Shown piece after piece: positions 10,673-39,473 of a DNA stretch of 53,604 bases. Both the position numbers and the translations under genes were made by a program. The DNA is taken from contig JAGVYR010000002.1 of the NCBI GenBank assembly GCA_018303185.1, forward strand, positions 1 through 53,604, given 5' to 3'. This stretch comes from Candidatus Woesearchaeota archaeon (GTDB taxonomy: Archaea > Nanobdellota > Nanobdellia > Woesearchaeales > GW2011-AR4). The notes beneath the pieces are model-generated. The model was given only the letters and a program-made list of their open reading frames with translations. It was not told where the DNA came from and made no database searches. Numbering within the stretch: position 1 is the stretch's first letter; each line of letters starts with the position of its first letter.

Positions 10673-11932
10673 ATGGATAGTGGCACTTCTCATGTTTTTG
10701 GCATTATAAAGGAGATTGGAGATGCCTCCAGAGACGGGTATGCGCTGATTGACAGCAGCTATAGAGTAATGTGGGTGAACAAGGCACTTGAGCTGAAGGG
10801 CTTCAGGCTTGACAATGTCCACGGAGAGCCTTATTTCAGGGCATTTAACGGAAAGGATGAAGCGGATGAGAACTGCTCCACTGCAAAGGCATTCAGGACA
10901 GGAAAGACAGAAACGAAGCTTGAGAAAGGAAGCGACGGGACTGAATATGAAGTTACGTCAATCCCGCTGAAGGTTGACGGGGCTGTGAAATACGTGCTGG
11001 AAATAAGCAGGGCAGCACATGGCGAAGAAAAGCAGAAGGAAGATCTTTTAGGGGATTACGATTTCTTCGAAGATGCCATAAGCAGGCTGCCGGAAGGATT
11101 TGCAGCTGTTGATTCTTCAGGAAAGCAGAGCATAGTGAATGACAAGTTCTGCAGCATGGTCGGCTTCAGCAGGGAAGAGCTTCTGGGGCAAACGGCGCCG
11201 TTCAAATACTGGGCTGAGGAAAATTATGGAGAGATAGAGCACGCCCTGCGGCAAACGCTTGAAGGGATTTCGAGGGGATGGGAGCTTATATTCAAGAAAA
11301 AAAGCGGAGACAGGTTCTGCGCGCTCATTTTTCCGGTTAAGATATCAAAGCCCAACGGAGAGGATGTATTCATTACAACTGTAAAGGACGTGACTGAGGA
11401 AAAAATGGCAGAAGACGAGCTGCTGAAATTCAAGCTGGGCATTGACAGGTCGCATGAGGTTGTTTTCATCACAGACAGGGAAGGGCACATCACTTACGCC
11501 AACCCGCAGTTTGAGAAGTCATACGGCTACCCGAAAGAAGAATATCTGGACAAAACTCCCAGAATCATAAAATCTGGAATCCTGCAGAAGGATGTTTACG
11601 ACAATTTCTGGAAAACCCTGCTGTCTAAGCTGGCTGTATCAGGGGAAATAACCAATAAGGCAAAAGACGGCAGGCTGCTGGTAATGCAGAGTTCTGCCAA
11701 CCCTATACTGGGCAAGGATGGAGAGATAATAGGCTTTTTGGCTATACAGCGTGAGATCACAGAGCGCAAAGCCATGGAAGATAAACTGAAAGCTGAGGGC
11801 GAAACCCTGAGGCAGAAAATCCAGGAGATGGAGAGATTCCACAAGGTTGCAGTTGGAAGGGAGCTGAGAATGATTGAGCTGAAGAGGAAAATAAGGGAAC
11901 TTGAGGGCATGCTTGAAAGGGAAGGGAAATAA
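10673..11932 (+). CDS. Cytoplasmic triple-PAS sensor protein with VGRELRM coiled coil
   Basis: 419 residues without membrane segments. Three PAS domains can be followed: about 10-115 (DGYALIDSSYRVMWVNKA), about 130-245 (GFAAVDSSGKQSIVNDKF, ending FITTVKDVTEEK) and about 250-370 (VVFITDREGHITYANPQFEK, ending IQREITERK). The tail is a coiled coil holding FHKVAVGRELRMIELK, a linker found in many sensory proteins and in two other genes here. There is no kinase domain; the next gene overlaps by one base (TAATG) and is a histidine kinase, so the pair may act as one sensor complex. Start ATG 10673 follows a GAGG at suitable spacing. Ligand unknown. Confidence 0.85.
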   Translation: MDSGTSHVFGIIKEIGDASRDGYALIDSSYRVMWVNKALELKGFRLDNVHGEPYFRAFNGKDEADENCSTAKAFRTGKTETKLEKGSDGTEYEVTSIPLKVDGAVKYVLEISRAAHGEEKQKEDLLGDYDFFEDAISRLPEGFAAVDSSGKQSIVNDKFCSMVGFSREELLGQTAPFKYWAEENYGEIEHALRQTLEGISRGWELIFKKKSGDRFCALIFPVKISKPNGEDVFITTVKDVTEEKMAEDELLKFKLGIDRSHEVVFITDREGHITYANPQFEKSYGYPKEEYLDKTPRIIKSGILQKDVYDNFWKTLLSKLAVSGEITNKAKDGRLLVMQSSANPILGKDGEIIGFLAIQREITERKAMEDKLKAEGETLRQKIQEMERFHKVAVGRELRMIELKRKIRELEGMLEREGK

Positions 11933-15373: not shown

Positions 15374-15607
15374 TCATTGCACTGCGTAAAAGCTTCCCTT
15401 CCTTTTCATCCTTATGCTCCATAATTTCCTTCTTTCGTGCCTGTTCGGAGAGTAGACTTTTTTCTTCGATTCCAGTATCCTTATGTACTTGCTTATCGTG
15501 ACTCTGTTTTCCGTCCGTAAATGGAAGCATATCGCCTTCATTGTCGCAGGCTTTCTGCGCTTCCTGAGGAATGCAAGTATCTTTTTCTCGAAATCAGTTC
15601 TTGCCAT
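15374..15607 (-). CDS. Small winged-helix DNA-binding protein
   Basis: 77 residues from ATG 15607 (MARTDFEKK); the ORF track starts two codons earlier at a TTG. The middle reads as a winged helix: KKILAFLRKRR, a helix pair with MKAICFHL, a recognition helix TISKYIRILESKKKV, and a basic wing. It overlaps the end of the upstream KaiC-like gene by 14 bp and so is probably translationally coupled to it. The chain is strongly basic. It is a candidate transcription factor for the shared GGATAAA sites, but nothing in the sequence ties it to them directly. Confidence 0.65.
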   Translation of the reverse strand: MARTDFEKKILAFLRKRRKPATMKAICFHLRTENRVTISKYIRILESKKKVYSPNRHERRKLWSIRMKRKGSFYAVQ

Positions 15608-16148
15608 TTTCAAGGTTTATTGTCCTGTCAGCGAACATTTCAACGTCTTTGATGAGGGAATCGCTGTCGTTCAGGATCATGTCTTCCTTCAGTATTATGA
15701 AAACTTTATTTGTGTTCTGCATGCTTTCCTCCACTGTAAGCTCGTGCGTGAATTTGAGTATGTCGTGGCTCTGCTCGTACATCAATAATGAGGACATTGT
15801 GTCGAAGATTACCGCGCTGCAGCTGTGCTTTGTTATTGACTCGTGAATTGCAGCCCTTATGTCATTGAGCTTTCTCGGCTCTTTGAGGAAGATGCAGTTT
15901 TCAGCCCTTTCCGGGCTCCTGTAATGGGATGTGAGCACGTCAATGAAGAAGAATTTTGAGAAGTTGATGTTCACTTCATCAAGGTATCTTATAACGTCGG
16001 CATACGGGCGGCTGAGGCAGACGTAGCATATCATGGCGCTTTTCTTCTCAACGCTTTTCACAAGCTCCGTAAGCTTTTCCTCGTATTCCTTTTCGCTCAG
16101 CATTACGAGGACGAAGCGGTTTTCAGATATTTCCTTTAAAAGATCCAT
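15594..16148 (-). CDS. KaiC-like RecA-fold protein lacking Walker A
   Basis: 184 residues. It aligns along its length with the product of 30524-31057: shared blocks are ICYVC, KFFFID, ENCIF/DCIF and the Walker-B-like FDxxSxLLxYE. The N-terminal position where KaiC proteins carry GxxGxGK(S/T) here has FVLVMLSEKEYEEKL, with no P-loop. It therefore probably does not hydrolyse ATP and may serve as a regulatory partner, resembling the P-loop-less KaiC-like proteins (DUF835/DUF7504 type) of other archaea. It is followed by, and overlaps, a winged-helix gene. Confidence 0.7.
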   Translation of the reverse strand: MDLLKEISENRFVLVMLSEKEYEEKLTELVKSVEKKSAMICYVCLSRPYADVIRYLDEVNINFSKFFFIDVLTSHYRSPERAENCIFLKEPRKLNDIRAAIHESITKHSCSAVIFDTMSSLLMYEQSHDILKFTHELTVEESMQNTNKVFIILKEDMILNDSDSLIKDVEMFADRTINLENGKN

Positions 16149-17284: not shown

Positions 17285-17602
17285 CTATGCTTTGCCAAGC
17301 TCCTTCTCCAGCTCCCTTATCCTGTTCTTCAGCTCAACCATCCTCAATTCACGCCCGACAGTCACCTTTTGAAACCTTTCAAGCTCTTCAGTCCTGGCCT
17401 TCACAATCTGTATCTCATTCTGCAGGCTCCTGTTCGCTTCTCCCATCTCTTTTGAGTTCAGCTCAAGGGAGCGCTCCATCAGGGTCCTGTCCTCGTCAAA
17501 ATGGATGTAGGTATCGCTGACTGCATCAAGGAAATCCTTCAATCCCGAAGGCACACCGCTGCCGAAATACTTCCTCAGCTGCCTCTCAAGTATCTTATGC
17601 AT
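17285..17602 (-). CDS. Small coiled-coil signalling protein with VGRELRM motif
   Basis: 105 residues. The N-terminal part (LERQLRKYFGSGVPSGLKDFLDAVSDTY, then RTLMERSLELNSKEM) resembles the helical segment that precedes GGDEF or kinase domains in many bacterial sensors. The C-terminal half is a coiled coil containing FQKVTVGRELRMVELKNRI. No enzymatic domain is attached, so it looks like a free-standing linker. It overlaps the FIST gene by 8 bp and is last in a three-gene operon whose first product ends with the same motif. Confidence 0.8.
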   Translation of the reverse strand: MHKILERQLRKYFGSGVPSGLKDFLDAVSDTYIHFDEDRTLMERSLELNSKEMGEANRSLQNEIQIVKARTEELERFQKVTVGRELRMVELKNRIRELEKELGKA

Positions 17603-18719: not shown

Positions 18720-19946
18720 CTATGCACCTCCCTTTTCCTCCAGATCCTTCACCCTTTTCTTCAGCTCAACCATCCTCAATTCACGCCCGACAGCAACCTT
18801 GTTGAACTTCTCCAGCTCCTCGTTCTTGAGCTGCAGCTCCCTTGTCCTTTTCGCAACCTTTTCCTCAAGATCCTTTGTCGATTTCTCAAGGCTCAAAGCC
18901 ATTGAATTGAAGGCGTCAGTCAGTTCCCCGACTTCATCTTCAGTAACAGCTTCAATCTTCTTATAATCTCCCTTGCCAAGCTCCTTTGCAGCATCCTTGA
19001 GCCTCACAATAGGCTTTGACAGCTCCCTTGCAAGGAAAAAGCCGAAAAGCAGGCTGCCCAGCACGGATGCCGAAACTATCGCAACAAGGACAAGCTTCAT
19101 CTGCTTTAAGGGCATGAAAGCCTCCTCGCGGCTCATCTCAGCCAGCAGGCAAACGCTATGCCCGGGAATCCACTTATGGTAGCTTATAACCTCATCACCT
19201 GCATAATTGCTATGCAGCCCGAAATTGCTCAGCCCGGAAACGCACTCCCTTACCGCGCTGGAATCAATTCTTTTAGAATAAAATTCGGAATTGCGCCTTG
19301 ATTCGCTTACCAGCACGCTTTCCTTGCTTACAAGATATGTTTCTCCTGTCTCCCCAAGGCCTGCCCTTTCGGACATGAGGGCCCTTACCTTGCTGAGGCC
19401 TGTTATGCCCACTGCAACTCCCGTCAGATTACCATTTTCGTCCTTTACAGGAAATGAGGCCGATACTGCAATTCCGCCAATCGTCGAATCCATGTAGAAA
19501 TTCTGCACAAAAATCCCCTTTTTTCCATTGATGAAATACTCTTCAGCGCTTTTGTCATCGCCGAAAAAAGACGGGTCTGCGGAGGCTATCACTTTTCCTT
19601 CGGAAGACAGCAGCAATATGGGCCTGAAAGGGCTGCCTTTCTGTATTGCAAAAACCCTGTTGTTTATTACCTCCTGCTCTTCTTCTGAGATTTCAACAGA
19701 AGATGCTGACTTTGAAGCATGCTCAGCTATGACGTCAATTGTTGCAACATGCTCCACTTCACCGGCAAGGCCTGTAAAAAAATCATCCAGCTCACTTTCC
19801 TTGAGGGCAGAAATGCCCCGCATCTGCGCCTGTATCCTCTCGTTAAGAGCATTTTCAAGCACGAAATAGAAGGCAATACCAGATATGGCAGTGCTTATCA
19901 GCGCGACTGCGAGAACGGCAAGGGTAATTTTGTGCCTTATCTTCAT
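18720..19946 (-). CDS. Membrane dCache-HAMP sensor without output domain
   Basis: 408 residues: membrane helix at about 8-28, a double-Cache-like extracellular domain to about 280, a second helix at about 283-305 (VLVAIVSASVLGSLLFGFFLA), HAMP at about 305-357 (DEVGELTDAFNSMALSLEK), then a coiled coil with FNKVAVGRELRMVELKKRV. The chain ends there: no methyl-accepting helices, kinase or cyclase. The signal must pass to another protein, for example the coiled-coil or FIST protein of the same operon. The start lies about 47 bp from the GGATAAA site at 19993. Confidence 0.88.
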   Translation of the reverse strand: MKIRHKITLAVLAVALISTAISGIAFYFVLENALNERIQAQMRGISALKESELDDFFTGLAGEVEHVATIDVIAEHASKSASSVEISEEEQEVINNRVFAIQKGSPFRPILLLSSEGKVIASADPSFFGDDKSAEEYFINGKKGIFVQNFYMDSTIGGIAVSASFPVKDENGNLTGVAVGITGLSKVRALMSERAGLGETGETYLVSKESVLVSESRRNSEFYSKRIDSSAVRECVSGLSNFGLHSNYAGDEVISYHKWIPGHSVCLLAEMSREEAFMPLKQMKLVLVAIVSASVLGSLLFGFFLARELSKPIVRLKDAAKELGKGDYKKIEAVTEDEVGELTDAFNSMALSLEKSTKDLEEKVAKRTRELQLKNEELEKFNKVAVGRELRMVELKKRVKDLEEKGGA

Positions 19947-20037: not shown

Positions 20038-21081
20038 TTAAATTTTCCTCTCAACCACAAAATCAGCGAATAATTTCAGCTTCTTTTTCGCTTCAGAATC
20101 CGGAATGACGAAGTCAAGCCTGCTCCATGCCTTCAGAACAAGCTTCCTTGCCTTCATGCGGGCATAATCCAAAGCATTATTCCTCTCAATGATGGAAACG
20201 GCTTCCTTGATCAGCTTCAGGTCGCGGGTCTTCAGGCTTAAAATCTCGAGCAGCCTCCTTCTGTCAGGCTCAGAACCATCTTCAAGGACTTTTATTACCA
20301 TCAGCGACCTTTTTCCCTCGGAGATGTCATCGCCGAATTCCTTGCCAATTTCCGCAGTCAGATTGAGAATATCATCCTGTATCTGGAAAGCCACGCCGAT
20401 AGCCTCTGCAAAGTCGGCAACAGCCCTGCTTTTCCTTGTGCCCGCATCGCCAAGTATGGCGCCTATCTTTGCGCCCAGCCTCACCAAAGTCCCGGTCTTG
20501 TAGGCGCACATCTGCATGTAAAGATCTTCCGTGGCAAAGCCGCTGTTGTTGTGCCAGTAAATGTCAAGGCTTTGGCCAAGGTGCAGCTTTATCATCTCTT
20601 CTGCAATGACTTCATGCAAAAGCAATTTCCTCTTGGCGTCAAGATCGGACTTCTTTATCAGCAAATACGGAAGGTAGTACATCATATTTCCTGCATTGAT
20701 AGCGACATCAACGCCAAAAAGCCTGTGGATGCATTCCTTCCCGCGCCTCTTTTCTGAATTGTCCATTACATCATCCACCATCAAAGTCCCATTGTGGATG
20801 AACTCTATCAGGGGCACAAGGTCCATCACTTTGGAGCCCCCCCCGAGCACATCGCAGCAGAGAAGCATGAATACGGGCCGCCATCTTTTGCCTCCGCGGT
20901 CAAGCAGATCCCAGATAGGCTCTGCAATCATGTTAAACGACTTTTTGTCATAGCCGTAATTCAGGGAGCCAAGATTTTTCTCAATCCAATCATGGCTCAG
21001 TTCCTTAGGGAAGAAGCGAAGCATGCTTTTGTCCACAAACGGCTTCATTGAATCTATGTATTCCATGAACATCTCAGTCAC
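20038..21081 (-). CDS. Polyprenyl (geranylgeranyl-type) diphosphate synthase
   Basis: 347 residues of the trans-prenyltransferase family, which condense isopentenyl diphosphate onto allylic diphosphates. The substrate motif GGKRWRP, the first aspartate-rich motif DDVMDNSEKRRGK and the second QIQDDILNL are visible. The last Asp of the second motif is Asn, as in some GGPP synthases, so activity is likely kept. The product would feed archaeal lipids or a prenylated cofactor. It overlaps the upstream YjbQ gene by 8 bp. Chain length of the product cannot be deduced safely. Confidence 0.92.
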   Translation of the reverse strand: MTEMFMEYIDSMKPFVDKSMLRFFPKELSHDWIEKNLGSLNYGYDKKSFNMIAEPIWDLLDRGGKRWRPVFMLLCCDVLGGGSKVMDLVPLIEFIHNGTLMVDDVMDNSEKRRGKECIHRLFGVDVAINAGNMMYYLPYLLIKKSDLDAKRKLLLHEVIAEEMIKLHLGQSLDIYWHNNSGFATEDLYMQMCAYKTGTLVRLGAKIGAILGDAGTRKSRAVADFAEAIGVAFQIQDDILNLTAEIGKEFGDDISEGKRSLMVIKVLEDGSEPDRRRLLEILSLKTRDLKLIKEAVSIIERNNALDYARMKARKLVLKAWSRLDFVIPDSEAKKKLKLFADFVVERKI

Positions 21082-21514
21082 CCATCACTTTTACCATCAC
21101 TTTCCGCTGCCTGTTTACCCCGTCCAAATCCACGTGGAAGATGGACTGCCATTTTCCCAGCAGCATCTCTCCGTTGACAACAGGGACTGTTTCAGAAGCG
21201 CCTAAAAGCAAAGACTTGAGGTGCGAATGCCCGTTGAGAGGCTCATCCTTCGGGCAGTCCCTTTTCTCTATGTCGTCATGGAGGTATCTTGCCGAGGCAG
21301 GCGCAAGCCTTTCAAGAAAAGACTTAAAATCGTACAAGAGCCTTTCTTCATTCTCATTGATGCGGATGCAGGAAGTGGTATGCATCGAGAATATGCACGC
21401 AATCCCTTCGGTAATGCCGGATTTCGAGACAGCTTCCCTGACTTGCGAAGTGATGTCCTCAAAATGCATCCTTTCCCTTGAAAGGATAGAGATAAACTGC
21501 CCGTAATGCTTCAT
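21074..21514 (-). CDS. yjbQ: YjbQ/UPF0047 family protein
   Basis: 146 residues, full length for the family. Signature blocks are HTTSCIRINENE, DEPLNGHSHLKSLLLGASETVPV and LGKWQSIFHVDLDG. The family has weak thiamine-phosphate synthase activity in bacteria, and its true role is unsettled. A strong AAAAAGGGGTG ribosome site precedes ATG 21514. It is the first gene of a minus-strand operon with the polyprenyl synthase and divergent from the UbiA gene, with a GGATAAA site between them. Confidence 0.92.
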   Translation of the reverse strand: MKHYGQFISILSRERMHFEDITSQVREAVSKSGITEGIACIFSMHTTSCIRINENEERLLYDFKSFLERLAPASARYLHDDIEKRDCPKDEPLNGHSHLKSLLLGASETVPVVNGEMLLGKWQSIFHVDLDGVNRQRKVMVKVMGD

Positions 21515-21574
21515 GACACACCCCTTTTTGCAGTATAATCAATCAACCAAGATATAAAAATTATTCAAGTTTTG

Positions 21575-21621
21575 GGATTAATATATCAAAAAACAGGATA
21601 AATTTTTACTGAAGTTTATCC
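21575..21621. promoter_or_regulatory. GGATTAA/GGATAAA repeat with inverted TTTATCC in divergent promoter
   Basis: GGATTAA at 21575 and GGATAAA at 21596 are 21 bp apart, and TTTATCC at 21615-21621 forms an inverted pair across 12 bases containing ACTGAAG. CAAAAAACAGG precedes the second box, linking it to the repeats at 16528. It lies between the divergent YjbQ and UbiA operons and could control both. Confidence 0.55.
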
Positions 21622-21683
21622 CTAAATCTTGATAATTTATTAATACTACTGTAAAGCTTATCTAGCCAAAAAGGGGTGATTTT

Positions 21684-22550
21684 TTGGAAATAGGAGTACT
21701 TCTCAAAGCTACGAGGGCATACAGGACATTAACCCCTTTGATGGTGATGCTCGTTTCAGTGGCTTTTGCGGGAAAGCTGAATATGGGCATAGCAGCCCTT
21801 ATGCTTGCCAACATACTCATCTATTCCGGCGCAAGCATACATAATGCCGTAAGAGACAATGATTTCAGGATGCCGCATTATTCGGGGAAAGTTTCAACGG
21901 CGCTGTTCATAGCGGCGATAGCAATCTCCTTTTCAGATAAAATAATGCTTGCAGCCGCACTGCTGTGGATAGCGCTGGGCTTTTTTTACAACACGCTCTC
22001 AAGAAAAATCCTTTTCGGGGATTCAGCGGTAATATCAGTGACTCATTTCGCAATCCCATCAATGAGCGCTTCGCTTATGGCAGGCGCTTCAATAAAAAGC
22101 TCAGTCCCGCTGGCAGCTTTCTTCATGCTCATAGGCTTTCTGATAACGCAGACAAAGAACCTCAAGGACAGGGAAAGCGACAAAAAAAGGGATTATGCAA
22201 CGCTTGCCACAAGATTCAGCAGCGGAACAAAGATGACAAAAGCCCTCCTTACAGCTTCCTTCGTTGCCATGATGTCCTCTTACTTCATCTTCGGCCTTTC
22301 AGCGAATTATATATTTTACTCGGCAGCGCTGGCTGTAATCCTTTTCTTTTCCCTGTCAAAAATTTCGAAGAATGAGGAGGGTATTGCGCTGATGCTGACA
22401 AGGATGGCGTTGCTCGTATTCATGCTCTCTCTCATCCTTGAAAAAACATCCGACTTCATGGTAATATCGGCGGCGCTGGCGATGTGCTACATCTACATAG
22501 TTGTCATATCCGCCGGAAGGATGAGGGACATGGCGGCGGGTGCAAAATGA
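21684..22550 (+). CDS. UbiA-family membrane prenyltransferase
   Basis: 288 residues with about eight membrane helices. The first metal-binding motif is divergent (NAVRDND); the second is clear in NLKDRESDKKRDYATLATRF. The family moves prenyl groups onto lipid or aromatic acceptors. In archaea one member makes digeranylgeranylglyceryl phosphate, but the acceptor here is uncertain. The TTG start at 21684 is set by the ribosome site AAGGGGTGAT six to seven bases upstream. It overlaps the aminotransferase gene (ATGA). Confidence 0.88.
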   Translation: MEIGVLLKATRAYRTLTPLMVMLVSVAFAGKLNMGIAALMLANILIYSGASIHNAVRDNDFRMPHYSGKVSTALFIAAIAISFSDKIMLAAALLWIALGFFYNTLSRKILFGDSAVISVTHFAIPSMSASLMAGASIKSSVPLAAFFMLIGFLITQTKNLKDRESDKKRDYATLATRFSSGTKMTKALLTASFVAMMSSYFIFGLSANYIFYSAALAVILFFSLSKISKNEEGIALMLTRMALLVFMLSLILEKTSDFMVISAALAMCYIYIVVISAGRMRDMAAGAK

Positions 22551-23740
22551 CGGCAGCAAGGGCAAGGGCGCAGCTTGCGGCTGATGTAAGCAGGTTTTTC
22601 GGGCCTTTCAGGAGAAATGAAGAAGCGAAGTACAACCTCGGGCTTGGGGAGATAGAGTGCAGAAATGCCCTGATGGAAGAGGCAATGGGCCAGAAAGAAA
22701 AAATCGCGGGAAAGCTGCTCAGCTCCCTTTCAAAATATCCCGGCTGCCAGGGATACATGCCCCTCAACGAGAAAATTGCAGAGCTGATAAAGGCCGAAAC
22801 GGGAATGGACTTCAATCCCGGGCAGATTGTGCTGACGGCAGGAGCTGCCGATGCAATTTCCCATGCGGTTTTTGTCTATTCGCATGCAGGTGAAAAAGTC
22901 ATGTTCCCGGTGCCGAGCTTCCCGTACTGGTGCAGCGTGGCAAGGAATGAATCATTGATAGAGCCAATAATGTGCATGCCTCAGGATTTCTCAGATAAAC
23001 TTTCAGGAAGGATTGAGGCGAGGGCAAAAAATGTATCAATGCTAATACTCAATGTGCCCCACAACCCCTACGGGTGCTCAATAGAACGGGGAGAGGCAGA
23101 GAAAATCAATGAGACTGCTTCAAGGCATAAGATAAAGGTTGTAATTGACGATGTCTATAGGGCTTTCACGAAAAAGGAATGGATAGGGAACAGCTTTGAC
23201 ATGGAAAATTCAGTAATAGTCGACAGCCTCTCGAAAAGATTCGGCGTTCCGGGATTAAGGCTGGGATTTGCAGCCCTGCCAAAAGTGGAAGTGAAGCACT
23301 TCAGGGCTGCTGTGGCTAACCAGTATGTGGGAGTCAGCATGCCTTCAGCCATAATAGCAGACGCGCTGCTTGAAGCCTACCTGAGCAATAAAAAACTGAA
23401 CACAATACCGAAGGAAATAGAAAAAAGGCAGGAAATCCTTGACAGCTACCTGAAAAAGCTTGAGCCATACGGCATTTTTTCCCAAAAGCCCGAGGGAGGG
23501 ATGTTCAGGGCTGTTTTCTGCAGGGATGCAAACCTGCTTGCTGCGGAGCTTGCCGGAAAAAATGTGATTGTGAAGGGCGGAAGGTCGAATTTTCCATTTT
23601 CATATGCCGGCATGCCTGAATTCATAAGGATTTCCGTCGGAGGAGAGGAAAGGATAAGGGAGGCAGCCGAAATAATAGCCGAAACGGTAAAGGAGATTGA
23701 GATGCCTTTGGAGGGCGAGAAAATTGCAGTCATTAGGTGA
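22547..23740 (+). CDS. Class I/II PLP-dependent aminotransferase
   Basis: 397 residues from ATG 22547, which overlaps the UbiA stop; the longer ORF in the track runs through UbiA and is not used. Fold-type I motifs: GYMPLNEKIAELI, NVPHNPYGCS, IDDVYRAF, and the PLP-lysine block SLSKRFGVPGLRLGF (Lys about 229). The C-terminal Arg motif is likely FIRISVGGEE. The substrate amino acid is unknown. Its place between UbiA and a citrate-synthase-like enzyme suggests it makes or consumes a keto-acid building block of the same pathway. Confidence 0.9.
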   Translation: MTAARARAQLAADVSRFFGPFRRNEEAKYNLGLGEIECRNALMEEAMGQKEKIAGKLLSSLSKYPGCQGYMPLNEKIAELIKAETGMDFNPGQIVLTAGAADAISHAVFVYSHAGEKVMFPVPSFPYWCSVARNESLIEPIMCMPQDFSDKLSGRIEARAKNVSMLILNVPHNPYGCSIERGEAEKINETASRHKIKVVIDDVYRAFTKKEWIGNSFDMENSVIVDSLSKRFGVPGLRLGFAALPKVEVKHFRAAVANQYVGVSMPSAIIADALLEAYLSNKKLNTIPKEIEKRQEILDSYLKKLEPYGIFSQKPEGGMFRAVFCRDANLLAAELAGKNVIVKGGRSNFPFSYAGMPEFIRISVGGEERIREAAEIIAETVKEIEMPLEGEKIAVIR

Positions 23741-24566
23741 AAAGAGGCAGCAGGAAAGAGAAAGGGGCAAGATAGACTTCCAGCTTGTGAACGGGAAAGA
23801 AGTGAGGCATTACATAAACATGGCAAGGTATGACAATGCCGCCTCAAGATGGGCCTCCATGGAAGACCTCTTTGCCACTGATTCGGATTTCATAGACCTG
23901 CTGATGCTCAAGCTGACCGGAAAATATCCCGGCTACAGGCAAAAGAAGCTGCTTCTGAGGGCGCTGATGACTGTAAGCATGGGGACTGGATACCACGCGC
24001 CCTCTGTTTTGGCGCCGAGGCTTGCGGCTTCCACCACCAAGAACGGCAATTTTGCAGTGATCAACGGCCTTATTGCGGGGCTTTCAACTGTTGGCACAGA
24101 CCATCTGGGAGCGGTGGCAGGTGTCATGGAGCTTTTTGTTAAGATAAAGGAAGAAGCAGGGCACGGCATAAAGGAATATGCGGAGAATTTCGTTTCGGGA
24201 GAGATTGCAGCAGGCAGGAAAATACCGGGCTTCGGGCATCCTGTTTACGAGAAAGATGAGCGGGCTGAACTGCTGCTGAAGGAAATTGAAAAAGGGTTTG
24301 ATAATGAATACATTGAGGCGTACAGCGCAGTTGCAGGAAAGCTCAGGGATGAAAAGGGGATATTTCCGAACATAGACGCTGCGCTTGCCCTTGCCTACCT
24401 CAGCCTTGGATTTGAGCCTGAGCACGGGATTTACCTTTCGTTTTTGGGAAGGTCGCTGAACATGATGTGCCATATAATGGATGAGCTGCCGAGAAAGCCC
24501 TTTTCATTCCTGAACGAGGCCGTGCCTCTGGAGAAGAATGCGGAATTTGAAAATGGAAAGCTATGA
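23724..24566 (+). CDS. Short citrate synthase / citryl-CoA lyase-like enzyme
   Basis: About 280 residues from TTG 23724, chosen because GGAGGG lies eight bases upstream; the track starts at TTG 23697. It matches the catalytic half of the citrate synthase family: NGLIAGLSTVGTDHLGAV, PGFGHPVYEKDER and FPNIDAALALAYL supply the two His and the Asp of the active site. Its length fits citryl-CoA lyase or the lyase part of ATP-citrate lyase better than full citrate synthase. It would form or split a citryl-CoA-like thioester. It overlaps both neighbours, so it is tightly coupled to the prenyl operon, an unusual place for it. Confidence 0.82.
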   Translation: MQSLGEKRQQERERGKIDFQLVNGKEVRHYINMARYDNAASRWASMEDLFATDSDFIDLLMLKLTGKYPGYRQKKLLLRALMTVSMGTGYHAPSVLAPRLAASTTKNGNFAVINGLIAGLSTVGTDHLGAVAGVMELFVKIKEEAGHGIKEYAENFVSGEIAAGRKIPGFGHPVYEKDERAELLLKEIEKGFDNEYIEAYSAVAGKLRDEKGIFPNIDAALALAYLSLGFEPEHGIYLSFLGRSLNMMCHIMDELPRKPFSFLNEAVPLEKNAEFENGKL

Positions 24567-25641
24567 TGTTGTTATTGTCGGGGCGGGGATTGCCGGGACA
24601 GGATTGGCTTACAACCTGAAGCAGATTTGTCCTGAGATTAAAGTGTTGGTTATTGAACAATATGGAGTAGGGTCACATGCAGGCTATGGATATAGGAACA
24701 CCTATGGGAATGTAATTGAGGGATATAACTTGCCGTATGTAAAAAAATTTAAGGGCCTGATACTACAGGCAAAAAATCATTTGAAAGAAGAAAGCATCAA
24801 ATTAGAAATAAAACTCGATGTGCCTTTTTACTTAGTAAACTACAAGGAAATATGTAAAAGCCTATTTGAGAGATCTGGTGTCAAATATTCCAACGATACT
24901 TGCATAAAGACTTTGGGAAAAAATAAGGTATTAACAAAGAAAGGTATATACCTATTTAAGTTTTTGGTAGATTGCAGCGGCTCTAATTTTTTTATACGCA
25001 GGGAAAAAAGGCTGAAAATGCCCTACTGCTACTGGGTATGCAAAAAAATAGAAAAATTTCCCACAGTCGAGAGTGGCGATTACTTCACGTATATTGTAAC
25101 CAGCGATGGAGGACTTAAGGAACAATACCCTTTAGGAGAAGAAATGATTGTTGCGGAATGGAAATTTGAATCGTGTATAAATCCACATCATAAGAAAATA
25201 CCGGGATTGGTTATACCATGCAACCCTTCTACCCCTATGGTAATGGGTAACATAGCATTTCTTGGTGATTCCTTTGGAAATGCCACTACAAGTGCTGGAG
25301 AAGGTATAAGGCCCATACTGGAAACTTCCAAATTATTGGCGAAGTGTATTAAAGAAGAAAATCTTCAGAAATATCCAAAGTTGTGGAACAAAATTTTCCT
25401 GAAAACTTACCTAAAACACTTGGCAACAAGGCTAAATCAGAAAGATAAGATTAAGCAGCTTGAGATGCTGAAGGAAGACCCACGAAGTATTTTGAAGATA
25501 TTGAGGTGCGAACACGTGGATAAGGAAACCATAAAAAAATTCCCAAAAACAACCCTCTTAATAAATGGTTTGAATTATGCTGCGCTGCTGGCTAAGCATA
25601 AATTGTATGAGAAATCAGAGTTTCTTAAATTTCAGAATTAA
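24553..25641 (+). CDS. FAD-dependent geranylgeranyl-reductase-like oxidoreductase
   Basis: About 362 residues from ATG 24553 (MESYDVVIVGAGIAGTGLAY); the track starts five codons earlier. The N-terminal GxGxxG binds FAD, VDCSGSN is the middle motif, and IAFLGDSFGNATTSAGEGIRP is the C-terminal FAD motif of the geranylgeranyl reductase / GG-bacteriochlorophyll reductase group. It may saturate a prenyl chain made by the neighbouring enzymes. The gene is visibly richer in A+T and in AAA, TTA and ATT codons than those before it. Its tail overlaps the convergent gene by 27 bp. Confidence 0.8.
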   Translation: MESYDVVIVGAGIAGTGLAYNLKQICPEIKVLVIEQYGVGSHAGYGYRNTYGNVIEGYNLPYVKKFKGLILQAKNHLKEESIKLEIKLDVPFYLVNYKEICKSLFERSGVKYSNDTCIKTLGKNKVLTKKGIYLFKFLVDCSGSNFFIRREKRLKMPYCYWVCKKIEKFPTVESGDYFTYIVTSDGGLKEQYPLGEEMIVAEWKFESCINPHHKKIPGLVIPCNPSTPMVMGNIAFLGDSFGNATTSAGEGIRPILETSKLLAKCIKEENLQKYPKLWNKIFLKTYLKHLATRLNQKDKIKQLEMLKEDPRSILKILRCEHVDKETIKKFPKTTLLINGLNYAALLAKHKLYEKSEFLKFQN

Positions 25642-26727
25642 CTGGTTGGACAAGACATCATCGTTGAAGCTCATAGAGCGTATGCCGTTGTAGATATTTT
25701 GAAGGAATCCGGTTAATAAATACCGCAGGTATGGGCATTCATACCGCGTTCTCGGAGGATACCTGATTTTTGCAGTTATGATACCTTTTTGCTCTGTGAC
25801 ATTGAGGAGACCGCATCCGGTGGCAGAGAATATTGCTCTCGAATAATCCACTTTTTTGGATACTGAATTCAAATCTGAAAAAAGCCCATCAGCAATAGAC
25901 TCAGCCTTTGATGTGATTTGCTTTTTACATAAATCAGAAAGCCCCCTTTTACGCAAATGCATAGCCGCTATGCCAAAAATACCTATTTCACCGGGAATTA
26001 AGGTAAAATTCTTCAATACAAACTTCCCGCTATGGCTCACATCTATAGCTTTAAAATATATTAATTTTTTTGTGGATATGGTTTTGAGCTGAAAGTTATA
26101 CTCAATTCGTGGAAAATTAAGACTTGATAATTCTTTTGTGAGTTCAAGTTCAGAAAGTTCTGGCCTAAAGGGACGATTTGTATATATGCAGGTTTCCAAG
26201 ATACTCTTTCCTTTTTCAACTTTGTATTTTGTTTTTACCTTAAGCCTTAAAAGCATAGAAAAGATACCATCAAGGATGCCTGCAAACAGGGCTTCATTGC
26301 CTGTTTTTCTTGAAACTACAGAGTCATAGCCCCAAGTCCTAAGAATACTCTTTTTTTCGTCATATTGGTAATTATCGCATGCTGAAGCACCCGCAGACTG
26401 CAAGGATTTTATGATAAAATCTAATATGTAAGGGAATTTATTAAGGGAAATTCCTTTTTTATCCCCAAATAACGCATACCTTATGCCGCTGTCGAATCCC
26501 ACCTCGTACCATAGATCAAGAGCTTTTTTCTTGCCAAGAACTTCAATCGTAGCCAGTTCCAAATCAACAATTATATCCTCAAAATAATACAAAACCCTTT
26601 TCCTGCTCCCCTTCCCTCCGTACTTTGAGGATGTCCTGCTCACTATTATCCCCGGCCTGTCTATTGTGACGACTTTCGGGAAAAAAAGCCTGCTGAAAAG
26701 GAAATCCCGGACTTTGTGAGATGACAT
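25615..26727 (-). CDS. Unrecognised 370-aa protein, possibly two V4R-like halves
   Basis: No family is identified with confidence. The chain has no signal or membrane segment. The segment about 90-170 (GFDSGIRYALFG to GILDGIFSMLLRLKVKT, then ILETCIYTNRPF) has the layout of V4R-type ligand-binding domains, and the part after 280 (GCGLLNVTEQKGI, RTRYECPYLRYLLTGF) may be a second copy. The gene is AT-rich, like its convergent neighbour. It is 12 bp after the symporter gene and the last of a four-gene minus operon with a KaiC ATPase, so a sensory role is possible. Confidence 0.55.
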   Translation of the reverse strand: MSSHKVRDFLFSRLFFPKVVTIDRPGIIVSRTSSKYGGKGSRKRVLYYFEDIIVDLELATIEVLGKKKALDLWYEVGFDSGIRYALFGDKKGISLNKFPYILDFIIKSLQSAGASACDNYQYDEKKSILRTWGYDSVVSRKTGNEALFAGILDGIFSMLLRLKVKTKYKVEKGKSILETCIYTNRPFRPELSELELTKELSSLNFPRIEYNFQLKTISTKKLIYFKAIDVSHSGKFVLKNFTLIPGEIGIFGIAAMHLRKRGLSDLCKKQITSKAESIADGLFSDLNSVSKKVDYSRAIFSATGCGLLNVTEQKGIITAKIRYPPRTRYECPYLRYLLTGFLQNIYNGIRSMSFNDDVLSNQLILKFKKL

Positions 26728-26739
26728 GCCGCTTAATAA

Positions 26740-28074
26740 TCAAATCGGCTGTTTAAAAATCTTCTGCCCCAAAAACAGCGCAATGAGGGACACGAAAAAG
26801 GAGACAAGCGAAAGCTCTTCCTTCAGCCCCGTCATGAAGTATACAATAAGCACGGACAGCGGGGTTGCCAGCAGTGAAAAAAACACGGAATTGCTCTTCA
26901 GGGGGCGGAACTGCATCCAGATTATTATAGGGGCAAGTGCGAGCATACACGCAGTGAAGAGGAATGCAAAGGCAATGACACTCTTCACAAGAAGGGAAAT
27001 CAGCACGCCAAGGGAGCATACAATGAAGATTGCAGCCTTGGTGCTCCTGACAGCGTCAAAAGCCCTGCCGAGCCTCGGAAGCAGGTCATTGGAAACGGAC
27101 ATTGCCGCGACAAACACAAGCGTATCCAGGGTGGACATTATGGCTGAAAAAAGAAGCACGAGCGCAAGCCCGGCAAGGAACGGAGAAAGCAATCCGGAAA
27201 AACTTGCGACAAGCGCATTCTCAGGAGTTATTGACGGGTAGAGGCTCCTTGCCATAATTCCAAGAAGCGAGCCAAGAAAGCCGAGGGCAAGCATAAAAAC
27301 AGCCGCAAGCAGGAATCCTTTTCTCATCACCCTGACGGATTTAGCGGCATAGGCACGCTGCCACACATCAGCCGCTATTATGACGAAAAACGCGCCGAAA
27401 ATCATGAAAGACAGGGCCTTGACAGCGCCTATTGAGAATAATTCAGGGCCGGCAGGAAAAAGAGGGACATTTCCCGCAAGGGAGAAAACTATGGCTGCCA
27501 TAAGGACAGCAATTGAAATGAACTGAAATACATCAGTCTTCACAACCGCCTTAAACCCGCCGAGAAGCATGTAGGACATTATGGCTGCGCCGACCAAAAG
27601 GACAGAAATCCCGTAGCTCCAGCCTGAAATCCCGCTAAGAATCAGGCCGCTCGCAATGAACTGCACAGCAATAAAAGCAAGGAAAAACAGGAACACAAAG
27701 GCGCTCAGCAGAAGCCCTGTCTTCCTGTCGTACCTGTCATAAAAATAATCCGCAAGCGTATAAAACTTTTTTTCATCAGCCGCTTCCTTTATCTTCTTTC
27801 CGAACATGGCAAAAAATACCAGCCCCAAGGCCTGCCCTGCCGTGAGCCAGATTGCGGAAAGGCCGAATGTATACGCTATTCCGACGAATAAAACCAGAAA
27901 GCCCCCGCCTATGAAGCCCGCGCAGATTGTTGAAGCAAGCGAAAAATGCCCGAGGCTCCTGTCCCCGATAAGAAACCCTTCCCTGCTCTCGCGCCTTGAG
28001 GAGAGATAGCCGATGATAAAAACTATGATAAAGTATAATGCAACAATGTACACGCTTATAGCTGCCAGTACCAT
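26740..28074 (-). CDS. Sodium/solute symporter (SSS) family transporter
   Basis: 444 residues with about twelve hydrophobic helices. The N-terminal stretch SRRESREGFLIGDRSLGHFSLASTICAGFIGGG and later LLGGFKAVVKTDVFQ are typical of sodium/solute symporters. The substrate cannot be told; similar domains in bacteria are also used as sensors fused to kinases. It lies 9 bp after the KaiC ATPase gene and 12 bp before an unknown gene, so transport and KaiC signalling seem to be linked here. Confidence 0.88.
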   Translation of the reverse strand: MVLAAISVYIVALYFIIVFIIGYLSSRRESREGFLIGDRSLGHFSLASTICAGFIGGGFLVLFVGIAYTFGLSAIWLTAGQALGLVFFAMFGKKIKEAADEKKFYTLADYFYDRYDRKTGLLLSAFVFLFFLAFIAVQFIASGLILSGISGWSYGISVLLVGAAIMSYMLLGGFKAVVKTDVFQFISIAVLMAAIVFSLAGNVPLFPAGPELFSIGAVKALSFMIFGAFFVIIAADVWQRAYAAKSVRVMRKGFLLAAVFMLALGFLGSLLGIMARSLYPSITPENALVASFSGLLSPFLAGLALVLLFSAIMSTLDTLVFVAAMSVSNDLLPRLGRAFDAVRSTKAAIFIVCSLGVLISLLVKSVIAFAFLFTACMLALAPIIIWMQFRPLKSNSVFFSLLATPLSVLIVYFMTGLKEELSLVSFFVSLIALFLGQKIFKQPI

Positions 28075-28083
28075 TCCGCCATT

Positions 28084-28782
28084 TTACTCCTTCTCTTCAA
28101 AAACCTTTATGCCTTTTCCCGTAATCTCATAGGCTTTGCTTTCCTTGTGCTGGCTTGTCCACCTCATCTTCGGGATGAAGATGCGCCTTTCTATGGTGCC
28201 AAGCTCCAGAAAATCAAGGCTTATGGTGCCGTCAACAAGATAGGGTATATTGTAGTAAAAGCCGTGCCTGCTGTCACGGCTCATCTCAAGTATGAGGATG
28301 GATGTGAGCCCTTTTCTCCTCAGCATGGAGAATGCCTGGTTTATCATCCTCCTTATGTTCACTTCGGACGGTATGGACAAAGCCTCAGGATGCGAGACTG
28401 CAGTGAAGAAGACATTAAAGCTGTCCACCACAAGGCGGTGTATGCTGCTGTCCTCCCTTATCTTCTGCAGAAGGTCGGAATAAATCTTTTCATACTCGGG
28501 ATATGTGAAGCATTTTACCACAATCTTCTCCTGCTTCACGAATTTCATGAATTCATCGGCAAAGGAAAACTGCGAAATCATAGTGTCAATATTCTCGCGC
28601 GGCTCCTCAAGGTTTATGTAGACGCATTTCTGGCCCTTTCTCGCGCCTTCAAGCAGGAAATGAAGCGCAAAGATTGACTTGCCGACTCCGGGGGGCCCCG
28701 AAAGCCCGATTATGCTGCTCTTGGGCAGGCCGCCCTGAACCATGGAATCCACTCCCCTAATCCCCGTCTTTTCCCTTTCCAT
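28084..28782 (-). CDS. KaiC-like RecA-fold ATPase (single domain)
   Basis: 232 residues. TGIRGVDSMVQGGLPKSS is the KaiC start motif, SGPPGVGKS the Walker A loop, INLEEPREN the catalytic Glu region and RLVVDSFNVFF the Walker B strand. The C-terminal part ends in YEITGKGIKVF. It should bind and hydrolyse ATP and act as a switch. It lies between a small conserved protein (12 bp upstream) and a symporter (9 bp downstream). Targets are unknown. Confidence 0.92.
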   Translation of the reverse strand: MEREKTGIRGVDSMVQGGLPKSSIIGLSGPPGVGKSIFALHFLLEGARKGQKCVYINLEEPRENIDTMISQFSFADEFMKFVKQEKIVVKCFTYPEYEKIYSDLLQKIREDSSIHRLVVDSFNVFFTAVSHPEALSIPSEVNIRRMINQAFSMLRRKGLTSILILEMSRDSRHGFYYNIPYLVDGTISLDFLELGTIERRIFIPKMRWTSQHKESKAYEITGKGIKVFEEKE

Positions 28783-28794
28783 GCTGCATCCTTA

Positions 28795-29097
28795 TCATAT
28801 TCTGATCTTGTCAACCACATACACGAATATTATCTTCGTGTTTGTCTCAAGCTTCTGGCATTTCACCTTTTCGTTAAACTTAAGATTGTTGCGCAGCTGC
28901 TTCGGCACAAGGAAATATTTCGTGGCTTCATTTTTGCCCCTTTGGGAGAGGTTTGTCCTTATGTCTGCAGAATCTTCTGAGAATATGTGCACATTCTTTA
29001 TATGCCCTTTCAGCAGAAGCGACTCTTCATAGTCCATTTCAACTTCAACAATTATCTTGTTGTCTTTCACTGATCTTGTGCCGATTATGGTGCCCAT
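28795..29097 (-). CDS. Small conserved protein, paralogue of 29262-29579
   Basis: 100 residues, probably mostly beta. It aligns with the divergently transcribed neighbour: LKGHIKNVHIFSEDSADI versus LKNSFRNVHLFAAGLCRD, KYFLVPKQLRN versus VHFSVPRHLKA, and ETNTKIIFVYVVDK versus ETRSKIFYIYVVDK. Family unknown. It is the first gene of the KaiC/symporter operon, so it may be a partner of that ATPase. Confidence 0.75.
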   Translation of the reverse strand: MGTIIGTRSVKDNKIIVEVEMDYEESLLLKGHIKNVHIFSEDSADIRTNLSQRGKNEATKYFLVPKQLRNNLKFNEKVKCQKLETNTKIIFVYVVDKIRI

Positions 29098-29261: not shown

Positions 29262-29579
29262 ATGGCAACTGTGCTTAATTCCAGGCTGCTGGCCAACGGC
29301 AATATAGTGTATCGGCTGGAGGCAGGCAATGGGGAGATTGCAGTGCTCAAAAACTCGTTCAGGAACGTGCACCTTTTTGCCGCGGGCCTGTGCAGAGATG
29401 AGGCGGAAGTTATAAGGAGGGGCAATGAAGGAGTCACAGTGCATTTTTCGGTCCCGCGCCACCTAAAGGCAAAAAACCCAAAGTCATTTGACAGGATCTC
29501 ATACCAGAGCATGGAAACAAGGTCCAAAATATTCTATATATATGTAGTGGACAAGGAAAATGAACTGATTGCCCTGTAG
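29262..29579 (+). CDS. Small conserved protein, divergent paralogue of 28795-29097
   Basis: 105 residues. It shares the NVHLFA, VHFSVPRHLK and METRSKIFYIYVVDK blocks with its head-to-head neighbour but is more diverged at both ends and ends in NELIAL. ATG 29262 follows the GGATAAA control region with no strong ribosome site. It appears to be transcribed alone, before a structured intergenic element. Function unknown. Confidence 0.75.
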   Translation: MATVLNSRLLANGNIVYRLEAGNGEIAVLKNSFRNVHLFAAGLCRDEAEVIRRGNEGVTVHFSVPRHLKAKNPKSFDRISYQSMETRSKIFYIYVVDKENELIAL

Positions 29580-30523: not shown

Positions 30524-31057
30524 CTATTTGCCGGCATCAATCGCCTTGTCAACGAACATATGCAGGTCTTTTATGAGCTCAGACTCAAGGTCGTCCCTAA
30601 GCGCGATGAATATAGCCCTTCCGTTCCTGATCTTTATCTTTGTTATCACGTTGTGCACGAACTGTATCAAAGTGTGGCCTTTCTCGTACACAAGGAGGGC
30701 AGAAAGCGCATCAAACAGAATGCCGCTGCAGTGCTGCTCGTTCAGCGCCTTTGAAAGCGCCATGCTTATCTCTGTCAGCGCATTTGGGGATGAGACAAAG
30801 ATGCAGTCCTTTGCCGGGGGAGGCTCCTGAACGTTCCTCGTGATGGTGTCTATAAAGAAAAACTTTCCCGCATCAATGCCGTTCTTCTTCATGTTTTCCA
30901 GCACGAAACTGTACGGCTCGTTGAAGCACACGTAGCATACCTTGTCCATGCTTGCAGCGGCCGCTTTCACCACTTCAATAAGCTCTGCATGGTATTTTTC
31001 CTTTGATGTAACAATCAGCACAAGATTGCTGCCCTTTATCTCTGCCTGCAAATCCAT
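30524..31057 (-). CDS. KaiC-like RecA-fold protein lacking Walker A
   Basis: 177 residues from ATG 31057 (MDLQAEIKG); the track adds 44 residues that read into the previous gene. It aligns throughout with the product of 15594 (VCYVCFNEPY, KFFFIDTITRN, DCIFVSSPNAL, FDALSALLVYEKGHT) and has no P-loop at the N terminus. It is probably a non-hydrolysing regulatory partner. It is the last gene of the receptor operon, four bases after a single-pass membrane protein, and convergent with the second cassette. Confidence 0.75.
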   Translation of the reverse strand: MDLQAEIKGSNLVLIVTSKEKYHAELIEVVKAAAASMDKVCYVCFNEPYSFVLENMKKNGIDAGKFFFIDTITRNVQEPPPAKDCIFVSSPNALTEISMALSKALNEQHCSGILFDALSALLVYEKGHTLIQFVHNVITKIKIRNGRAIFIALRDDLESELIKDLHMFVDKAIDAGK

Positions 31058-31061
31058 CTTT

Positions 31062-32495
31062 TCACACCTTCGTTTCTTCTGCGTTGTTTTTTCCTGAATC
31101 TTTCCCTGTTCTCTTCCCCAGCAATGACTCAAGCACAGGCAGCTCCTCCTTAATCCTGAGGAGGCGCTCCTGATACTGGTCCACAGCAAGGTTATAGGAC
31201 TCCCTGCTTATGCTCTTTCTTGCAAAGTAATCTGCCTGTGACTTCTTTATCATCTCAATCATTGCCTTCTCCTCTTTTCTCAGCGAGGATATCTTCATGC
31301 GCAGCAGCCTTGCGGACAGAATCCTGTAAATGAATATCCCGGAAACTCCGGCAGCAATGGCAGCCAGCGCAGCGGCCCACCAGTATTTTTTCAGGAATTC
31401 AAGCAGGCTGAATTTAATCCGGCTTTTGCTGACAACGCCGAAAAGAAGGGAGGACGCCTTCACTTCCTGGGCACCCATGGCAGCGCTGCGAGCAAGGCTT
31501 TCGGCCTGCCCGTAATCCTCCAGCAGGAATTTTTCATCAGCCTGAGCGAGCAGCTTTTCCGGCCCGGACGCATCCAGATTCGTGGCATGCAGCTCTCCTA
31601 TCAGTGCTTCTGCGTTTTTCCTTTCCTCCTGGAATGAACCCATAAAACCTCTAAGGTTTGCAGACTCATCAGCGGCCTTTTCCGCGTTCGCATATTGCCC
31701 AAGCTCTATCGAAAGAAACGCCTCATTGTAAAGGTCATTAAACCTCGCATGGGTTATGTTCATGCTTTCCGCATAGCGCACCGATTCCCTGATTGAAACA
31801 AGGCCGTGAACCGAGGAATTCAGGGCAAGGATCCTGCTTTTAAGCACGGAAGTTCCTGTGAAATCTCCGGCTGAGAGTTTTTTGCGGATTTCTTCAGAGG
31901 CAGAGTTGACAGCCGACAATTCAATGCCCTGCCCTGAAGCAAGATTCTGCAGGCTGTCTGCTGCCGGAATGAGAGATTCAAGCTGTTTCCCAAGAAGCGA
32001 GCTTATGCCGGCAAGGCTTTTTTCAATTGAAGGAGAAGAGGCTTCATAGTTCCCTATCTCAAAATCGGCAGTCCCTTGATTAAGAAGCTCTTCAATGCCG
32101 CTTACATTCAGGGAAAGCTTTTTTCCATCTTCAAGAAGCTCGCGAGAATTGCTGATTTTTTTTCTGAGAGACACTGCATCATCCCTCAGCGCCATTATGC
32201 TGCCGCCTGTCTCAATTACGCTGCCATAATCGCCGTTTTCCAGGAAAATATTGGCATCATTGAGCATGTCCCGGGCATAGTCTGTGTTGAGGCCCAGGCC
32301 CTGCATGTAGTTGACTGCGTTTTGCGAATTTTTAATGGACTCTTTCGCCTGAGCCAATGTGTATACAGACGACTGGTTCTGGGCAGATGCAGGGATTATG
32401 GCATAGCCTATCGCAAACAAAAGCACTGAAATCACTGCAGCTTTCTGCAGCAGTCCGGTTCCTTTCATTTTTGCCCTGCCCATCTTTCTTTTCAT
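31062..32495 (-). CDS. Single-pass receptor-like protein with extracellular helical repeats
   Basis: 477 residues. A signal peptide (about 15-39, ending PASAQ) is followed by an extracellular region of helical repeats with the pattern LxxGDYxxAxxxxxxAxxL (for example FLENGDYGSVIE, FLLEDYGQAESL), a membrane helix at about 368-388 and a cytoplasmic coiled coil. The cytoplasmic part contains SQADYFARKSISRESY, a motif found twice in the upstream 1642-residue protein. The layout is that of a transmembrane receptor or tether. It lies between that protein (19 bp) and a KaiC-like gene (4 bp). Confidence 0.75.
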   Translation of the reverse strand: MKRKMGRAKMKGTGLLQKAAVISVLLFAIGYAIIPASAQNQSSVYTLAQAKESIKNSQNAVNYMQGLGLNTDYARDMLNDANIFLENGDYGSVIETGGSIMALRDDAVSLRKKISNSRELLEDGKKLSLNVSGIEELLNQGTADFEIGNYEASSPSIEKSLAGISSLLGKQLESLIPAADSLQNLASGQGIELSAVNSASEEIRKKLSAGDFTGTSVLKSRILALNSSVHGLVSIRESVRYAESMNITHARFNDLYNEAFLSIELGQYANAEKAADESANLRGFMGSFQEERKNAEALIGELHATNLDASGPEKLLAQADEKFLLEDYGQAESLARSAAMGAQEVKASSLLFGVVSKSRIKFSLLEFLKKYWWAAALAAIAAGVSGIFIYRILSARLLRMKISSLRKEEKAMIEMIKKSQADYFARKSISRESYNLAVDQYQERLLRIKEELPVLESLLGKRTGKDSGKNNAEETKV

Positions 32496-39419: not shown

Positions 39420-39473
39420 CCTGCAAAATCCAGCCTGCTTCTTTTGCAGTCCGTTAATTATCATGCTTATTTT

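Follow-up and report, generated by a model that had tools for sequence, protein, structure and literature searches.

We examined a gene cluster in a 53,604-nucleotide stretch of DNA (here called the window; positions 1 to 53,604 of the forward strand of contig JAGVYR010000002.1, assembly GCA_018303185.1) from Candidatus Woesearchaeota archaeon, whose draft genome (G000) is 91% complete. The cluster contains a UbiA-family prenyltransferase and has the appearance of an as yet unrecognised system of chemical signalling in archaea, not of a gene set for membrane-lipid synthesis. A preliminary description had named six genes in it, namely a polyprenyl synthase and a YjbQ gene divergent from the genes for UbiA, an aminotransferase, a short citrate-synthase-like enzyme and a flavin adenine dinucleotide (FAD) reductase, the last four overlapping one another. 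All six are intact at their reported positions and in the reported orientations (Table 1). The end of the cluster had been set at 25641; the functional unit instead reaches to about 29100 or beyond, and takes in a V4R-like protein, a symporter-like transporter, a KaiC-like ATPase and a conserved 100-residue protein that we call p100.

Table 1. Genes of the cluster and the basis of their assignment (positions are those of the window)
Feature	Position	Strand	Basis
Polyprenyl (short-chain isoprenyl) diphosphate synthase	20038..21081	-	Pfam polyprenyl_synt 1e-66
YjbQ/UPF0047 protein	21074..21514	-	TIGR00149 3e-35; UPF0047/YjbQ 9e-38
UbiA-family prenyltransferase	21684..22550	+	Pfam UbiA 1e-12, 47.9 bits vs cut-off 34.2
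Class I/II (HisC/CobD-like) aminotransferase	22547..23740	+	Pfam aminotransferase I/II 1e-37
Citryl-CoA-lyase-like short citrate-synthase enzyme	23737..24566	+	Citrate synthase C-terminal domain 1e-22; PRK06224 citryl-CoA lyase 5e-24
FAD oxidoreductase, geranylgeranyl-reductase/p-hydroxybenzoate hydroxylase (PHBH) superfamily	24538..25641	+	GG-red-SF 7e-7, far under cut-off
V4R-like 370-residue protein, two tandem V4R/Bet3/H-NOX-like halves	25615..26727	-	Predicted fold and orthologues
Sodium/solute-symporter-like transporter	26740..28074	-	Open reading frame; family named by sequence
Single-domain KaiC-like ATPase	28084..28782	-	Pfam KaiC 1e-41; Walker A GPPGVGKS
p100, conserved 100-residue protein	28795..29097	-	Alignment of orthologues
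Second p100 paralogue, divergent from the first	29262..29579	+	Match 1.1e-21 at 29262-29561

The overlap of the last four genes named in the preliminary description is borne out by their likely start codons. UbiA probably begins at a TTG (21684) with GGGGTGA upstream, the aminotransferase at an ATG (22547) that shares ATGA with the UbiA stop, and the citrate-type enzyme at a GTG (23737) that shares GTGA with the aminotransferase stop, while the FAD gene has candidate ATG starts at 24538 and 24553, giving overlaps of 29 or 14 nucleotides with its predecessor. From this layout, with mutual overlaps of 4 to 29 nucleotides, we infer a translationally coupled operon. At its 3' end the FAD gene overlaps the convergent V4R-like gene tail to tail by 27 nucleotides. 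The polyprenyl synthase is present as a single copy in G000, and likewise in the relatives G048, G049 and G074. Scanning the window against Rfam yielded nothing at the gathering threshold.

The comparison of UbiA neighbourhoods among relatives that the preliminary description had proposed showed that this arrangement recurs and is not due to chance. In total, 23 distinct UbiA loci were gathered, by a UbiA family search of 79 relatives followed by profile searches with the V4R-like protein and the KaiC-like ATPase, from genomes that public records assign to Woesearchaeota, Pacearchaeota and Nanoarchaeota, nearly all of them draft metagenome bins. At every one of the 23 loci the UbiA operon and the V4R-like gene converge, and the 3' ends overlap in 20. 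KaiC is present in 21/23 loci, the FAD enzyme in 20, p100 in 19 and YjbQ in 10; for the prenyl synthase and isopentenyl diphosphate (IPP) isomerase the count is 9 or 10 each. Several of the missing genes fall at contig ends. The UbiA family search of the 79 relatives by itself recovered three other genomes with the cluster type of UbiA (G048, G049 and G074), all of which carry the same flavoenzyme and the same convergent V4R-like gene. Across the loci the sensor genes are constant and the tailoring genes variable, a pattern that would fit signals differing between species. The possibility that prenyl supply, an amino-acid/citrate operon and sensory genes lie together by chance, or merely share a region, gains something from the variable middle genes and from an aminotransferase unique to G000. 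It is nevertheless very improbable, and already refuted for the core of the cluster, as UbiA-FAD facing V4R-KaiC-p100 recurs in three groups with overlapping gene ends, at UbiA identities of 24-40%.

The protein facing the UbiA operon was characterized chiefly by structure prediction. Its AlphaFold2 model, built from 16 sequences, has a predicted local distance difference test (pLDDT) score of 82 and a predicted TM-score (pTM) of 0.84, and comprises two similar halves. Foldseek relates this model to TRAPPC6/Bet3, the phenol-sensing domains of PoxR and MopR, H-NOX and the archaeal V4R protein MJ1460, with probabilities mostly of 0.97-1.0 and modest TM-scores; a profile of the protein gave no match by sequence in the PDB. 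Matches among 16 orthologues are to Pfam V4R in one case (6.5e-5) and to XylR_N in three (0.007), and most of the orthologues contain a KCxxCPxxC-like cluster. The ligands of Bet3 and of the phenol sensors are lipids or aromatic compounds, and the 370-residue protein is predicted to be a small-molecule sensor. A profile search places it in about 17 of the 353 genomes of the order.

The accompanying KaiC-like ATPase scores 142.9 bits against a Pfam cut-off of 26.6, and is 44-74% identical between loci. In the window the symporter-like gene sits between it and the V4R-like gene, as do the symporter orthologues at two other loci (L089/L117 and L110, where L-numbers denote individual loci). p100 is more widespread than the 370-residue protein, being present in 55/353 genomes of the order, and a second copy beside the first is also seen in L081, L038, L082 and others. 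It has no convincing match in Pfam and none in the PDB; a by-eye suspicion that it is AbrB-like was dropped as unsupported, its model also being poor (pLDDT 60). In a further set of loci (L184:8539-9891, L193, L205-L211, L218) p100 lies beside a protein of about 300 residues, with neither UbiA, FeeM nor an adjacent V4R gene; the start of the L184 version resembles AbrB by eye. One contig labelled Flavobacteriales (L122, PFUQ01000062.1) carries p100 and KaiC of the DPANN system together with a gene of bacterial appearance that is interrupted by a stretch of N, and is probably mis-binned or chimeric. Elsewhere in the window, proteins at 15594-16148, 30524-31189, 37854-38624 and 38691-39464 appear by eye to be KaiC-like or degenerate KaiC-like, so that the whole region around the cluster may be a sensory island. 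Sensor-type proteins at 10673-11932, 17285-17602 and 18720-19946 share a C-terminal segment resembling VGRELRMVELKKRIRELE, which is possibly a common interaction tail.

Many p100 loci that lack UbiA show the same sensory genes in a different company: after p100-KaiC comes a V4R protein (Pfam V4R up to 1e-13) that faces a protein of the FeeM family, i.e. an N-acyl amino acid synthase with the LuxI fold, which is often fused to or adjacent to a methyltransferase. In a seed-independent test, the 353 genomes of the order were searched once with Pfam FeeM and once, separately, with Pfam V4R. A V4R match was found within 5 kb of 10/17 FeeM matches, against 0.02 expected, and nine of these ten pairs are convergent; with a broader V4R profile, the number of FeeM loci that have V4R as a neighbour is 15. 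As the same p100-KaiC-V4R set faces FeeM at these loci, the UbiA operon appears to hold the slot of a signal synthase. The FeeM type is confined to relatives, G000 itself giving no match to PF21926. Individual loci with FeeM/LuxI-fold synthases convergent with V4R-KaiC-p100 include L180, L181, L183, L185, L189, L190, L192, L199, L229, L242-L245 and L095. Methyltransferase or radical S-adenosylmethionine (SAM) genes often accompany the synthases at these DPANN loci, and it is possible that the products are signals of the N-acyl amino acid methyl ester type. At L187:2930-5784, next to p100-KaiC, a V4R gene is accompanied by an AMP-binding/GH3-like ligase and a methyltransferase; this ligase and methyltransferase may constitute a third type of synthase.

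In a reading as archaeal membrane-lipid synthesis, the UbiA of the cluster might be the digeranylgeranylglyceryl phosphate synthase of the organism, with the FAD enzyme as a divergent geranylgeranyl reductase. Its first Asp motif and its separate clade speak against this. Nearly all the 23 cluster UbiAs have NAxxDxD as the first motif, not the NDxxDxxxD of lipid UbiA, while the second Asp motif, D...D(K/R), is retained. A maximum-likelihood tree gathers them in one clade (95/99), separate from 22 other UbiAs of the order; as some branches of this tree are very long and it includes no lipid UbiA of proven function, it speaks for distinctness and not for function. The best PDB relative is chlorophyll synthase, a weak match, and no lipid UbiA structure was found below E = 1. 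Furthermore, G048, G049 and G074 each carry one other UbiA besides the cluster type, and sensor genes are linked to UbiA in every locus. G000 also encodes, away from the cluster, a CDP-archaeol synthase (CarS, contig C37) and a separate geranylgeranyl reductase (contig C22, 30236-31063) that scores 175.1 bits, above the TIGR02032 cut-off of 158.8. With a clade of their own for the cluster UbiAs, and with a true geranylgeranyl reductase encoded at another place in G000, the cluster UbiA most likely does not participate in lipid synthesis. In favour of the lipid role, the polyprenyl synthase adjoins UbiA, the presence of CarS and geranylgeranyl reductase indicates that lipids are presumably made, and a 2021 study ascribed a Woesearchaeota UbiA beside genes of the methylerythritol phosphate (MEP) pathway to ether lipids (PMC8204110), although that UbiA may or may not belong to the cluster clade. 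On balance we regard this role as improbable.

Further searches bear on the lipid pathway of these organisms more generally. A search for geranylgeranylglyceryl phosphate (GGGP) synthase (PF01884) gave weak or absent matches in all four genomes, with nothing detected in G000, and is uninformative. The UbiA family search found no UbiA match in 50/79 relatives. The middle of the lipid pathway in G000 and its relatives thus looks either missing or very divergent. Other genomes of the order, including members of the same family, contain UbiAs with NDxxDxxxxxxD...FSGGSR (L008-L010, L012-L014), which are MenA-like by eye.

The remaining enzymes of the operon point to tailoring reactions that differ from locus to locus. 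The flavoenzyme, previously described as an FAD reductase, is an FAD-binding oxidoreductase, but only a weak relative of geranylgeranyl reductase: its score on TIGR02032 is 29.2 bits, and its profile matches archaeal geranylgeranyl reductase and monooxygenases alike, weakly. Given this score against the cut-off of 158.8 and that of the other gene, its identification as geranylgeranyl reductase was ruled out. In the citrate-type enzyme the catalytic residues H136, H181 and D227 are invariant in four orthologues and align with those of the closest solved relative, the citryl-CoA lyase 6hxp (4e-30), while on the PRK06224 models it reaches 85.2 bits against a curated cut-off of 212. A contig search seeded with this single protein gave no match. 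A citryl-CoA-lyase-like gene is found in 5/23 loci and a homocitrate/isopropylmalate-synthase-like gene in 8/23, and the two never occur together (hypergeometric ~0.09); citrate as a common product of the two was set aside as conjecture, in view of this value and of substrates that cannot be read from sequence. A coenzyme B/2-oxosuberate-like chain elongation, considered because L038 has LeuD and homocitrate synthase genes, was likewise dropped, as LeuD is found in no other locus. The aminotransferase is limited to the window, with no counterpart in the other 22 loci. In two loci (L082, L088) UbiA and the FAD gene are separated by a UbiE-like methyltransferase, and the locus table has a third, candidate methyltransferase in L089; a B12 radical SAM enzyme is present in 2/23. 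The preliminary description had taken the aminotransferase and the citrate-type enzyme as grounds for a prenylated product other than a membrane lipid, and had held that sole copies of UbiA and the reductase, grouping with the lipid enzymes in phylogeny, would tell against it. Both genes are accessory to the cluster; UbiA is the only copy detected in G000, whereas the reductase is not. The different product itself is partly supported, mainly by evidence outside that description: the UbiA clade, the separate geranylgeranyl reductase and CarS, and the pairing with V4R and KaiC.

Taken together, these observations suggest that the UbiA operon makes a prenylated signal that is sensed by the V4R-like protein and transmitted by the KaiC-like ATPase, a reading to which we assign a probability of about 0.55. 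The adjacent synthase would supply the prenyl diphosphate, with IPP isomerase (IDI), YjbQ or DXS encoded beside it in other genomes. In the window the aminotransferase could provide a 2-oxo acid, which the citryl-CoA-lyase-like enzyme could condense with acetyl-CoA; in other genomes this step might instead involve the homocitrate/isopropylmalate-synthase-like enzyme, an added methyltransferase or radical SAM enzyme, or nothing extra. UbiA would then prenylate the acceptor, and the FAD enzyme, judging from its family, would reduce or oxidise the product. Finally, the tandem V4R-like protein would bind this product, and the KaiC-like ATPase and p100 would change state in response and in turn act on an output. 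A more tentative extension is that DPANN archaea possess a modular means of communication, in which one receptor set (V4R, KaiC-like ATPase and p100) is combined with interchangeable synthases, either UbiA/flavoenzyme for a prenylated signal or FeeM/methyltransferase for one of the N-acyl amino acid type.

Several points weigh against a prenylated signal. Convergent gene order alone is no proof of a ligand-receptor relation, and the convergence at all 23 loci is partly a matter of selection, as most loci were seeded with the V4R-like protein or KaiC; free of such selection are the UbiA family search of the 79 relatives and the test of Pfam FeeM against Pfam V4R. The V4R-like protein of the window has no match in Pfam, its identity resting on the predicted fold and the orthologues, and it lacks the Cys cluster, as does the copy in L084. 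Moreover, the absence of a second detectable UbiA in G000, despite the presence of CarS and geranylgeranyl reductase, leaves the lipid role a small share of the probability. The main rival is a prenylated, quinone-like redox cofactor or membrane compound made under the control of V4R/KaiC, with V4R sensing an aromatic or lipid precursor or acting as carrier and no signalling between cells. UbiA, the UbiE-like methyltransferase and a geranylgeranyl-reductase/PHBH-type flavoenzyme do resemble quinone tailoring, and the V4R family also has proteins linked to pigment synthesis. We consider such a cofactor rather unlikely, however, given that the cluster contains neither aromatic-precursor nor respiratory genes, that this sensor set also occurs together with FeeM synthases, which make no quinone, and that the cluster is patchy, as seen in the distribution of the V4R-like protein.

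DPANN archaea mostly live attached to other cells, and to our knowledge almost nothing has been described of signalling in them; we also know of few defined inputs for the KaiC-like ATPases proposed as archaeal signal hubs. If the prenylated-signal reading is correct, it would supply a concrete input for KaiC, in the form of a cluster-encoded small molecule with its receptor and synthase in two chemical versions, and would explain an orphan UbiA otherwise liable to annotation as a lipid-synthesis enzyme. The predicted ligand-binding fold of the V4R protein might then make this protein a direct handle on the compound.

The cluster resembles several known systems in its parts. With the UbiA and geranylgeranyl reductase of archaeal ether-lipid synthesis it shares enzyme superfamilies and the supply of a prenyl donor, but it differs in UbiA clade, first Asp motif and flavoenzyme score. 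The citrate-type enzyme shares with Hydrogenobacter citryl-CoA lyase 6hxp the short citrate-synthase fold, the His/His/Asp residues and a C-terminal KPF(S) segment, but falls under every NCBIfam cut-off and is tied to UbiA, not to carbon fixation. The 370-residue protein shares its predicted fold, an aromatic/lipid ligand-binding domain, with the V4R/XylR_N phenol sensors PoxR and MopR, with TRAPP Bet3 and with H-NOX; unlike PoxR and MopR, it has two tandem halves and no fused sigma-54 activator, and the copy in the window is without the Cys cluster. A role as hubs of archaeal signal transduction has been proposed for KaiC-like ATPases (Makarova et al. 2017, as cited in PMC5847659), and the single-domain KaiC ATPase beside sensor genes fits this picture. 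In the literature searched, which left out most subscription papers, no link of V4R or FeeM with KaiC in these archaea was found, nor any description of KaiC in association with V4R-like proteins, p100 and a dedicated small-molecule synthase. The closest parallel in organisation is with LuxI/LuxR pairs and FeeM synthases. In the window, the synthase slot is occupied by a UbiA operon, the putative receptor has a predicted V4R fold with no DNA-binding domain identified, and the output would be a KaiC-like ATPase. Nonetheless, in both cases the gene for a small-molecule synthase is paired with that for a ligand-binding protein, here a predicted receptor, and in the relatives the synthase itself belongs to the FeeM (LuxI-fold) family.

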